A stretch of 64,000 nucleotides of DNA from Metabacillus sp. KUDC1714 (GTDB taxonomy: Bacteria > Bacillota > Bacilli > Bacillales > Bacillaceae): contig NZ_CP055263.1 in NCBI RefSeq assembly GCF_014217835.1, forward strand, positions 310,001-374,000, in the 5' to 3' direction. The notes under the pieces are model-generated. The model was not told the origin of the DNA. It was given only the letters and a program-made list of their open reading frames with translations, and searched no databases. Of the stretch, positions 58,680 through 63,893 are shown piece after piece; position 1 is the first letter of the stretch; every line of letters begins with the position of its first letter. The position numbers and the translations under genes are program-made.

Positions 58680-58714
58680 AAAAAAAGAGCTGGCATTATA
58701 GAAATGCAGCTCTA
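58680..58714 (-). terminator. Terminator of the ilv-leu operon
   Basis: AGAGCTGCAT and ATGCCAGCTCT arms followed by TTTTTTT on the minus strand. The 5' arm overlaps the last leuD codons. Confidence 0.87.
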
Positions 58715-59289
58715 CTTTCTTCAAATTTTTGAATTTTTTCGTTGTAGTTTAGTGTTAAGTCAATTTCGTCTTTCCCATATAGCAGCATGTCTTTCCAGTA
58801 TGGATCAACAGCAAATGATTCTGAAAGATTATCACTATCCGTAAGCTTTTGCTCTTCTAAGTCTATTTTTAGTTCGTATCCTTCAGCATTTGCCTTTTCT
58901 CGGATCACATCTAAAACAGATTGATCTAAAGTAATTGGCAACAAGCCATTTTTTAGACAGTTCTGATGGAAAATATCTGCATAGGAAGGTGCTAAAATAA
59001 CTTGAAATCCGTAATCTGACAGAGCCCAAGGAGCATGCTCACGAGAAGATCCACAACCGAAATTTTCTCCAGCTAGTAAAATAGAGGCTCCCTTACTTTT
59101 CTCTTGATTTAATTCAAATTCTGGATTATCAGATCCATCAGGAAGGTATCTCCAATCGAAAAAGGCAAATCGACCATAGCCTGTTTTTTCGATTCTTTTA
59201 AGGAATTGCTTTGGAATAATTTGATCTGTGTCAACATTTGCTCTATTTAAAACTGCTATTTTCCCAGTATGGGTAGTAAAAGGTTTCAT
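58696..59289 (-). CDS. leuD: 3-isopropylmalate dehydratase, small subunit
   Basis: LeuD pairs with LeuC to isomerise 2- to 3-isopropylmalate. ANVDTDQIIPKQFL and AGENFGCGSSREHAPWAL are the swivelling-domain signatures. The start ATG 59289 has GGAGGGG upstream, 14 bases after leuC; the longer frame to 59346 is inside leuC. 197 aa. Confidence 0.97.
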   Translation of the reverse strand: MKPFTTHTGKIAVLNRANVDTDQIIPKQFLKRIEKTGYGRFAFFDWRYLPDGSDNPEFELNQEKSKGASILLAGENFGCGSSREHAPWALSDYGFQVILAPSYADIFHQNCLKNGLLPITLDQSVLDVIREKANAEGYELKIDLEEQKLTDSDNLSESFAVDPYWKDMLLYGKDEIDLTLNYNEKIQKFEESRAAFL

Positions 59290-59302
59290 TTTGCCCCTCC
59301 TA

Positions 59303-60730
59303 TTATGCGTGAATTTTCTCCTTCTGAATGTGTCGAACATCAACAAATTTACCGTGTAATGCTGCAGCTGCTGCCATAGCAGGGCTTACTAGATGTGTTC
59401 TCGCACCTTTACCCTGTCTACCTTCAAAGTTTCGATTTGAGGTCGAAGCACAACGTTCTCCTTCTGGAACAACATCATTATTCATGCTTAAACACATACT
59501 ACAGCCAGACTCTCTCCATTCAAAGCCAGCTTCTTTAAAAATGACATCTAAGCCTTCCGCTTCTGCTACCTTTTTAACTGTTTGAGATCCAGGTACAACG
59601 ATTGCTCTGACGGTAGGAGCAACCTTTTGCCCTTTTAGTCCTTTAATAACTTCAGCTGCTTGGCGTAAATCTGTCAAACGTGAATTTGTACAAGACCCAA
59701 TAAAGACATGATCAATTGTAATATCCTCAATCTTCATATTTGGTTGTAATCCCATATAATCAAATGCACGTTTTGCTTCATCTACTTCTTCTGAATTTTG
59801 AAAACCGTTTAGATCAGGTGTCTTTTCGTCAACACCAACTGCCATTCCAGGGTTTGTTCCCCAAGTTACCATTGGAGCAATGTCTTCACCTTGTAACGTA
59901 ATGACTTCATCATATTCTGCGCCTTCATCAGTTTTTAACGTTTTCCAATATTCTACTGCCTTATCGAACTCTTCACCTGTTGGTGCATATTTCCTTCCTT
60001 TAATATAAGAGAAAGTTGTTTCATCTGGTGCGATAAGACCTGCCCTTGCTCCAGCTTCAATCGACATATTACAGATTGTCATTCGCTCATCCATTGATAA
60101 GCTCTCAATAACCTCACCTGTAAACTCAATAATAAAACCTGTACCAAAACGAACTCCGTATTTTCCAATTACAGCTAAAATGACATCCTTAGCAGTAACC
60201 CCATTTTGAAGTTTTCCTGGAACATGTATGTTTAACGTTTTTGGACGTTGTCTCCATAATGTCTGTGTTGCTAAGACATGTTCTACTTCACTAGTACCAA
60301 TTCCAAAGGCAATCGCTCCAAAGGCTCCATGTGTTGATGTATGACTATCACCACATACAATTGTTTTCCCTGGAAGTGTTAAGCCTAATTCAGGTCCAAT
60401 AACATGGACTATTCCTTGATCTTCACTTTCAAGGTCAGCTAAACGAATTCCAAATTCTTTACAGTTACGTTCTAATGCTCCAATTTGAAGTTTTGCAACC
60501 TCATCATTAATCACAAAGCGGTTTACCGTTGGGATGTTATGATCCATCGTAGCAAATGTTCTGTCTGGTCTTCTTACTTTACGATTTTTTTCACGCAAAC
60601 CTTCAAATGCCTGTGGTGATGTAACTTCATGTATTAAGTGTAAATCAATATAAATTAGATCAGGCTTACCTTGTTCTTGCTGAACAATATGCTCATCATA
60701 TATCTTTTCAATTATCGTTCTAGGCTTCAT
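59303..60730 (-). CDS. leuC: 3-isopropylmalate dehydratase, large subunit
   Basis: LeuC carries the [4Fe-4S] cluster on the Cys of [10 protein letters not shown] and [11 protein letters not shown]. The aconitase fold motif MDHNIPT and [13 protein letters not shown] are clear. I start at ATG 60730 ([14 protein letters not shown]), with AAGGAGG 9 bases upstream; ATG 60736 is too close. 475 aa. Confidence 0.97.
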
Positions 60731-60761
60731 GGTCATAAACCTCCTTTTATAGATGGAAAAA

Positions 60762-60797
60762 TGAGGGGCTGACAAATGCACGTGTCAGACCCCTCAA
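60762..60797. repeat. GGGGTC-type palindrome between leuB and leuC
   Basis: GAGGGGCTGACA and TGTCAGACCCCTC arms around AATGCACG. It is related to the lonA-lonB cluster and lies inside the leu transcript. The rest of the 158-bp gap shows no gene. Confidence 0.82.
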
Positions 60798-60888: not shown

Positions 60889-61998
60889 TTATGAATAAGC
60901 TTCCATAATATTTAAGATTGCATGGTCATCTCCAAGTGCATTTTTAATCTCTTCACCTATTTGCTTTGTGGAAACAGCCTTTCCATCTTCAGCAAGGTCA
61001 GCTGTTCTGTTACCAGCATTCAATACATTATCAACAGCCTTTTCAATTGCCTTTGCTTCTTCTTCTAAACCAAATGATTGGCGTAGCATCATTGCTGCAG
61101 AAAGAATAGTTGCAATCGGATTCGCAATGTTTTTCCCAGCAATGTCTGGAGCAGAACCGTGTACTGGCTCAAATAAATGCAATCCACTAGAAGATAAGCT
61201 TGCAGAAGACAGCAATCCTAGTGAACCAGTAATCATCGATGCTTCGTCACTTAATATGTCACCAAACATATTCTCTGTAACAATAACATCGAACTGTTTA
61301 GGTGAGCGGATAAGCTGCATTGCTGCATTATCAACAAGCATATGCTCTAGGGTAACATCTGGATATCTTGCAGCTACCTCTTCTGCCACTTCTCTCCACA
61401 CTCGGCTTGATTCTAATACGTTCGCCTTATCAACAGATGTGACATGTTTGCGACGCTTAGAGGCAATTTCAAATGCTGAAACAAGGATTCGCTCGATTTC
61501 ATAACGCTTGTAAAGTAAAGTATCTACTACAGCATCCTCACCTTCATGAACAATTCGTTCACTTGGCTTGCCGAAATATAATCCGCCTGTTAGCTCTCGA
61601 ACGATTACAAAATCTACTCCATCAACATACTCTTTCTTTAAAGGGGAAGAGTCTAACAAACTTTCAAATGTTTTAATTGGTCGTAGATTTGCAAATAAAT
61701 CAAGTTCTTTCCTTAATGCTAATAGTCCACGTTCTGGTCTAAGTTCCATAGGATTCTGGTCCCATTTCGGTCCACCAACAGCACCTAAAATAATTGCATC
61801 GGAATCCTTACAGATAGCAATAGTTTCTTCTGGTAGTGGAGTGCCTTTTTGATCGATTGCGTCTCCACCGATAAGTCCATAGTTAAATTGAAATTGATGA
61901 TGAAAATGTTCTGCAATAGCTTTTAAGATATCAACTGTTACATCAACAACTTCTTTACCAATTCCATCACCCGGTAATAATGCAATTGTTTTTTTCAT
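60889..61998 (-). CDS. leuB: 3-isopropylmalate dehydrogenase
   Basis: LeuB oxidises and decarboxylates 3-isopropylmalate with NAD. Family motifs are IALLPGDGIGKEV (3-15), the substrate arginines in ELRPERGLLALRKEL, VIVRELTGGLYFG and the NAD site in FEPVHGSAPDIAGKNIANP. 369 aa, SD AGAAGGGGG. Confidence 0.98.
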   Translation of the reverse strand: MKKTIALLPGDGIGKEVVDVTVDILKAIAEHFHHQFQFNYGLIGGDAIDQKGTPLPEETIAICKDSDAIILGAVGGPKWDQNPMELRPERGLLALRKELDLFANLRPIKTFESLLDSSPLKKEYVDGVDFVIVRELTGGLYFGKPSERIVHEGEDAVVDTLLYKRYEIERILVSAFEIASKRRKHVTSVDKANVLESSRVWREVAEEVAARYPDVTLEHMLVDNAAMQLIRSPKQFDVIVTENMFGDILSDEASMITGSLGLLSSASLSSSGLHLFEPVHGSAPDIAGKNIANPIATILSAAMMLRQSFGLEEEAKAIEKAVDNVLNAGNRTADLAEDGKAVSTKQIGEEIKNALGDDHAILNIMEAYS

Positions 61999-62043
61999 GT
62001 TCTATCCCCCTTCTAGTGATTTAATTTAGTAGACTTGCTTCCA

Positions 62044-62250
62044 AGGAGCTAGCCCGATTACTGAGCTGTTTTTGACTTCTTTACGATTTCTTAAACTGCT
62101 AATAAATCACTTTTTAATGAAGCAGGAAAACCTGCTTCATTAACGACAATGCCGAGTTTTTCTAGCTATTTATGCAATCTCACGCATTTATTTAACATTA
62201 AGTTTAAGCCTTTTTAGATTGTTCGCCATCACGGAGCGTTGTAACAAAAA
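62044..62250 (-). pseudogene. leuA: leuA (2-isopropylmalate synthase) N-terminal remnant
   Basis: Directly after the ilvC stop the minus strand reads VTTLRDGEQSKKA* in one frame, the LeuA active-site start (DTTLRDGEQS). Farther on REIA*IARK, then in another frame LGIVVNEAGFPAS, LKSDLLAV*EIVKKSKTAQ and in a third VIGLA follow, matching EAGFPASSxGDFxAVxxI and GLA of LeuA residues about 9-80. There are several stops and at least two frame changes. The remaining roughly 430 codons are deleted, and leuB begins about 45 bp after. Confidence 0.85.
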
Positions 62251-62252
62251 GG

Positions 62253-63341
<1,089 letters not shown>

Positions 63342-63377: not shown

Positions 63378-63893
63378 TTATACAATTGATATTGGAACTT
63401 CTTTTACAGATCTTTGAGTTCCGCGAGTGAAAGCTGTGGTTCCAGTTCGTGCAATTTCTTTGATTCCATAAGGTTTCAATAAATCTATTAAAACTTCAAT
63501 TTTCTCAGGTTCGCCTGTTACTTGAACAACAACACTTTCTCGGCTGACATCAATGACTGAAGCACGGAATGGTTGAATGAGTCCTTGAAGCTCCATTCTT
63601 GTCGCTGGAGTGGACATTACTTTAATTAACGCCAGCTCTCTTGATACAATTGAATGTGCTGTAATATCAGTAACCTTAATCACATCAATTTGCTTATTCA
63701 ATTGCTTCGTGATTTGCTCGACTTCTTTTTCTTCTTGAACATTTACAACAAGTGTCATTCGTGAAACACCTTCTGTTTCAGCATGACCTACTGTTATGCT
63801 CTCAATATTGAAATGTCTTTTTGAAAATAAACCTGTAATTCTATTTAAAACTCCAGTTTGATTAAGAACTGTTAATGAGATGATTCTTTTCAT
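63378..63893 (-). CDS. ilvN: Acetolactate synthase, regulatory subunit
   Basis: The 171-aa subunit (called IlvH in B. subtilis) carries the ACT domain [29 protein letters not shown] that binds valine. The C-terminal domain is [21 protein letters not shown]. The start ATG overlaps the ilvB stop (ATGA). Confidence 0.97.

Follow-up and report, generated by a model that had tools for sequence, protein, structure and literature searches.

Loss of leuA from an otherwise complete ilv-leu operon raises the question of whether the organism has become a leucine auxotroph or now carries out this step by other means. The question is posed by Metabacillus sp. KUDC1714 (genome G000), in which the window, the whole stretch of 64,000 nucleotides analysed here, ends within such an operon. 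An earlier note, made from the letters of the window, had described leuA as eroded to a stub between intact ilvBNC and leuBCD genes and had concluded that the strain should require leucine unless leuA existed elsewhere. The relevant features are as follows.

L007:4723-4977, minus strand: T-box leader of the operon (RF00230), outside the window
L007:2891-4615, minus strand: ilvB, full length (NCBIfam model), extending past the window end
63378..63893, minus strand: ilvN, intact and full length (NCBIfam model)
62253..63278, minus strand: ilvC, intact and full length (NCBIfam model)
62048..62266, minus strand: remains of the N-terminal part of class I leuA, equivalent to about 73 codons and interrupted by stops and frameshifts (alignment to G013)
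62021..62044, minus strand: C-terminal end of the leuA relic, made up of the 7 final codons (LEASLLN) and the stop, directly after the deletion junction
61999..62020, minus strand: retained stretch 5' of leuB, with a purine-rich motif resembling a ribosome-binding site (read from the sequence)
60889..61998, minus strand: leuB, intact and full length (NCBIfam model)
59303..60781, minus strand: leuC, intact (NCBIfam model), with the true start probably downstream of the listed GTG
58696..59346, minus strand: leuD, intact and full length (NCBIfam model)

The 254-base gap between ilvC and leuB holds, on the minus strand, a decayed class I leuA. Homology begins at a GTG at 62264-62266, overlapping the end of ilvC, and continues to about 62048, leaving 219 bases in which alignment with relatives revealed substitutions, small indels and stops. 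Identity to the leuA gene of G013 extended over 168 of 206 positions with a local score of 124, and the best of 300 mononucleotide shuffles scored 16; translating the gap and aligning it to LeuA, a check proposed with the original observation, thus matched it to the 5' end of the class I leuA genes of relatives. The three minus-strand frames encode a 20-residue piece, then a piece ending in LGIVVNEAGFPASLKSDLLAV and a stop, and then one ending in NSSVIGLAPWKQVY and a stop, and the hallmarks TTLRDGEQS, NEAGFPAS and GLA are spread over these three frames, as had been reported. The relic was also detected by TIGR00973 (22.1 bits; E, 1.4e-4), with one TAG and two TAA codons inside the match. Syntenic, significant homology combined with a lost reading frame and the absence of most of the catalytic domain identified the relic as a class I leuA (TIGR00973) pseudogene. 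Measured from the ilvC stop, the ilvC-leuB interval was 257 bases in G000 and 1,559 to 1,576 bases in 13 genus members with an intact leuA. As the relic consists of an N-terminal part followed by the native 3' end, an internal deletion has taken about 1.3 kb out of leuA. The missing part is about 85% of the gene, the same proportion as had been estimated from the window. The operonic leuA is certainly dead.

The remainder of the operon was as intact as the earlier note had claimed, with ilvB, ilvN, ilvC, leuB, leuC and leuD all being full length and each scoring above the cut-off of one or more NCBIfam models. Comparison of G000 with G012, taken from an identical LeuA to be Metabacillus bambusae BG109, covers the period after the loss and gave dN/dS values of 0.030 to 0.040 for leuB, leuC and ilvC. 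Values of 2.2 and 2.5 for leuC in two pairs with G001 looked like an alignment fault and were left out; they are probably due to a stop upstream of the true start.

An assembly or sequencing error, with leuA intact in the organism itself, has next to no chance of explaining the stub. The separate genome of M. bambusae has the same junction and the same 257-base interval, and assembly loss is for this reason unlikely; this explanation was rejected on the shared junction. Furthermore, 8 of the 21 genus members lack the operonic gene, with different junctions. Where three intact relatives have the same base, 13 changes were common to the G000 and G012 stubs, 15 were restricted to G000 and none was restricted to G012, the stub of the latter being the less damaged. 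The deletion is older than the split between G000 and M. bambusae, and the suggestion of a recent loss was only partly right, there having been separate losses in other lineages as well. The division of changes between the G012 (L010) and G000 stubs, 0 versus 15, was more uneven than the flanking genes would suggest.

The genome consists of a single contig of 5,764,082 bases (5.76 Mb). A search with PF00682 and the LeuA dimer domain PF08502, as had been recommended, detected one LeuA_dimer match and four PF00682 matches, only one of which was a 2-isopropylmalate synthase (IPMS), and this was a class II enzyme.

G000:C1:5393630-5395333 (L006:5631-7334), minus strand: class II leuA, 567 aa (NF002991)

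On the contig, 5.02 Mb separate this gene from the relic; in a circular chromosome, the distance in the opposite direction would be 0.74 Mb. The other PF00682 matches were an HMG-CoA lyase, a 332-aa aldolase-like protein and a 1,160-residue frame, which was taken from its length alone to be pyruvate carboxylase. The 332-aa protein (L008:3837-4835, minus strand) resembled 4-hydroxy-2-oxovalerate aldolase, scoring 140.7 against a cut-off of 229, and its gene has a neighbour that appeared by eye to be sulfatase-like.

The class II protein scored 794.5 bits with NF002991 (PRK03739), a subfamily model with a cut-off of 455, and 194.3 bits with the class I model TIGR00973. Its score with the TIGR00970 equivalog model, 684.3, was below the cut-off of 697.4; none of the proteins from the 21 genus genomes passed this cut-off and, hence, the protein was not filed under TIGR00970. 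It contains the catalytic barrel (PF00682), a post-catalytic domain (PF22615) and the LeuA_dimer domain (PF08502). The nearest solved structure was 1sr9, a 2-isopropylmalate synthase (516.8 bits; E, 6.7e-154), which we take to be LeuA of Mycobacterium tuberculosis. R80, D81, E218, H285, H287, N321, H379 and Y410, presumably the active-site residues of 1sr9, were identical in the alignment of the two proteins. The dN/dS values for class II leuA were 0.022 to 0.101 (10 of 11 pairs gave a value), and the gene is under purifying selection. Values for pairs of genomes lacking the operonic gene (0.022 to 0.073; 4 pairs, dS being saturated with no value in a fifth) and for pairs retaining it (0.034 to 0.101; 5 pairs) were overlapping. 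From these features of the sequence, the class II protein is predicted to be an active LeuA and the strain to be a leucine prototroph. The remaining LeuA belongs to a different class and is not a moved copy of the lost gene, contrary to the proposal of a relocated leuA.

As IPMS, homocitrate synthases and citramalate synthases have a common fold and the TIGR00970 score was slightly under the cut-off, the class II enzyme might catalyse another chain-extension reaction, with LeuA activity being supplied by a different protein. This was judged very unlikely: the nine best PDB relatives were all named 2-isopropylmalate or isopropylmalate synthase, models for only homocitrate or citramalate synthases gave at most 94.4 bits and the mixed LEU1_arch model gave 120.7 bits, compared to the 794.5 bits for NF002991, the leader of the gene has a leucine triplet, and no further IPMS candidate was found in the genome.

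T-box leaders (RF00230; gathering score, 93) were detected 5' of both class II leuA (139.3 bits) and ilvB (100.1 bits). Both G000 leaders have GAA-CUC-GCC at the specifier place, CUC being a leucine triplet. CTC was present at this place, as set by eye, in all 38 leaders compared, which comprised 20 class II leaders of the genus, 3 class II leaders of other genera, 10 operonic leaders (thereby covering 10 of the 21 genus genomes) and 5 leaders of a stand-alone class I variant. All 20 class II leuA genes of the genus have a T-box 5' of the gene. Since both transcripts start with a CUC T-box leader, coordination between class II leuA and the operon should persist, with uncharged leucine tRNA switching on both. 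The class II leaders of G001 and G011 (L051 and L053) were 84 to 86% like the leaders of the stand-alone class I variants of G006, G008 and G010, 68 to 70% like that of G009 and 63 to 75% like the other class II leaders compared. Leaders may have been exchanged in G001 and G011, leader and gene appearing as if recombined.

Class II leuA was present in 20 of the 21 genus genomes; G014, which does not have it, keeps class I. An intact operonic class I leuA was found in 13 of the 21 and was absent from G000, G003, G005, G008, G012, G017, G018 and G019. All eight of these have class II leuA, and 12 of the 21 genus members keep both genes. A stand-alone leuA of a class I variant, with its own leucine T-box, was detected in five genus members (L187 in G006, L188 in G017, L189 in G008, L190 in G009 and L191 in G010); that of G010 has 523 aa and NF002086 as its best model. 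As G008 and G017 are among the carriers of this variant, class II need not be their replacement; in the other six genomes lacking the operonic gene, class II was the only LeuA found.

The loss label required 4 changes on a tree of the valS region, with the affected genomes forming a G018/G017/G008 clade, the G000/G012 pair and a group of G003, G005 and G019 in which G006 keeps the gene. When the changes were read as losses, there seemed to be at least three loss lineages. The operonic leuA of G006 (L171; G006:C1:45000-59000) is intact inside a clade of losers, and its flanking operon genes share 95 to 99% identity with the genes of G005 and G019, two genomes with a common decayed stub. As a test of a shared early loss in G003, G005 and G019 with restoration in G006, the stubs of G003 and G005 were compared, and 3 same and 3 different derived bases were found in 107 columns. 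The gene of G006 may have been either kept or regained, and the number of losses in that clade would depend on which. The M. bambusae junction was identical to that of G000, those of G005 and G019 end elsewhere and the stub of G003 is shorter, so that examination of the same gap in close relatives, another of the proposed checks, separated one shared deletion from others. In the ilvC-leuB gaps of G018, G017 and G008 (L028, L029 and L030), an inverted repeat followed by T-rich sequence was observed by eye, which could be a terminator or processing site.

The absence of changes restricted to the G012 stub at the scored sites, against 15 in that of G000, would fit a stub that still serves some purpose, for instance as a small peptide or an RNA element in the ilvC-leuB gap. 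Such retention was considered extremely unlikely. Stops and frameshifts are not the same from stub to stub, a search of 61950-62400 gave no terminator-like site, and G008, G017 and G018 have no leuA remnant recognisable by eye or by tblastn at 1e-8.

A survey of 150 genomes of the order Bacillales was performed with three models, using thresholds of E 1e-130 for leuB and E 1e-100 for class I leuA. leuB was detected in 136 genomes, class I in 132 (127 above the model cut-off) and class II in 9 genomes from 9 genera. Neither LeuA class was found in 14 genomes, and these were precisely the genomes in which leuB was missing; a PF08502 search that took in these 14 among 23 genomes gave no match in them. 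Class II without a class I match was observed in G000, G075, G077 and G110, all four of which have leuB. Among genomes with leuB, class I was absent from 4 of the 9 with class II and from none of the 127 without it (Fisher's test, 9.2e-6, kinship ignored); with class I matches below the cut-off counted as absent, the proportions were 4 of 9 and 5 of 127 (0.001, kinship again ignored). These sub-cut-off matches were in G038, G046, G057, G101 and G123; no LeuA_dimer match was found in G038, G046 and G123, and stops interrupt the class I matches of G057 and G123. The LeuA of a few leuB genomes lacking class II may, therefore, be doubtful. The 156-base ilvC-leuB gap of G077, whose assembly is listed with 7% contamination, contains an N-terminal leuA stub of 34 residues (53% identity; E, 3.6e-5), so that another family of the order offers a parallel. 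No leuA relic was found in G075 and G110 at E 0.01. Besides class II, G075 has a second LeuA_dimer protein in a 562-residue frame.

These results bear on leucine auxotrophy, in which leuA would have gone first in an early decay of the pathway, with leuBCD to follow. The certain death of the operonic gene is what such decay would produce. In view of the class II gene and of the survey of the order, auxotrophy was nevertheless rejected and retains only a very slight probability: the genome has a complete class II leuA that is under purifying selection, is preceded by a leucine T-box and encodes a protein in which the active-site residues are conserved; all 136 leuB genomes of the order have a class I match at E 1e-100 (5 below the cut-off) or class II; and leuB, leuC and ilvC continued to exhibit low dN/dS values after the loss. 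The prediction of auxotrophy carried the proviso that leuA might exist elsewhere, and it falls because a full class II LeuA does.

The evidence points with high confidence to a displacement in which an unlinked class II leuA with a T-box leader took over from the operonic class I gene. An ancestor in the Metabacillus lineage would have had two 2-isopropylmalate synthases, one encoded by class I leuA in an ilvBNC-leuABCD operon and the other by a stand-alone class II gene. As the step was then doubly provided for, the internal deletion could have taken most of the operonic gene; leuB would have retained its own ribosome-binding stretch, and the remnant would have decayed further. The class II enzyme most likely supplies the missing step of the pathway today, and 2-isopropylmalate from another source, as had been considered, need not be invoked. 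Through the two CUC leaders, a shortage of charged leucine tRNA would be expected to turn on the operon and class II leuA together. We infer from the distribution that class II arrived before class I was lost, as loss of the operonic gene was observed only with another LeuA present, both in the genus (8 of 8) and in the order (4 of 4 leuB genomes without a class I match at E 1e-100). Displacement is not inevitable, as evidenced by the 12 genus members with both genes.

A tree of 63 class II proteins was constructed from the 20 sequences of the genus survey and 43 of 46 named loci (L139, L141 and L142, having no open frame of >500 aa with the motif, were left out). The Metabacillus genes did not form one clade and were mixed with those of Niallia, Lederbergia and Paenibacillus. 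Some grouped in a supported set (98/88) with M. arenae, Niallia sp. and Bacillus sp. ISL-18; the rest, including G000, were joined to Paenibacillus and Lederbergia by a weak fork, and many forks lacked support. This tree, together with the patchy presence of class II in the order, would fit more than one transfer. There was a suggestion, which we advance tentatively and with somewhat less than even confidence, that class II leuA and its leucine T-box constitute a portable Bacillales unit that spreads between genera, inserts at unlinked sites and repeatedly makes the operonic class I gene dispensable. If so, the committed step of leucine synthesis leaves the ilv-leu operon with its tRNA control retained.

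These findings correct an easy misreading, in which a broken leuA is taken as leucine auxotrophy, and provide a natural series for the passage of one pathway step between enzyme classes, from both genes intact through a deletion with a stub to no trace. Leucine synthesis is feedback-controlled at the replaced step, its point of entry, and a separate RNA switch precedes the substitute gene; the swap thus allows one to ask whether leucine control has changed apart from that of isoleucine and valine. A literature search of open-licence papers found no description of leuA displacement in Bacillales or of this series of stages.

The Bacillus subtilis ilv-leu operon, for which we assume the order ilvBNC-leuABCD with a leucine T-box, has the same gene order and a CUC leader in common with the operon described here, in which, by contrast, leuA is deleted and the step is encoded elsewhere by the other LeuA class. 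Marta, in 1996, is said to have described CUC-dependent leucine regulation of the B. subtilis operon. The class II LeuA of M. tuberculosis (1sr9) is the closest solved relative of the substitute enzyme, with identical active-site residues; it has 644 aa, whereas the protein described here has 567 aa and a T-box upstream. Corynebacterium glutamicum was the only one of 14 control genomes to score above the NF002991 cut-off. Non-orthologous (xenologous) gene displacement, in which a function is handed over to a distant homologue once the two have coexisted for a time, is a kind of event that is known already. A T-box-governed leuA from another phylum (PMC2494555) shares T-box control of this gene with the present system, and the excerpted text of that source makes no mention of class II or of loss of a second leuA. 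What distinguishes the Metabacillus genes from known cases of gene displacement is that several stages, with both genes intact, a stub or no trace, are found inside one genus.
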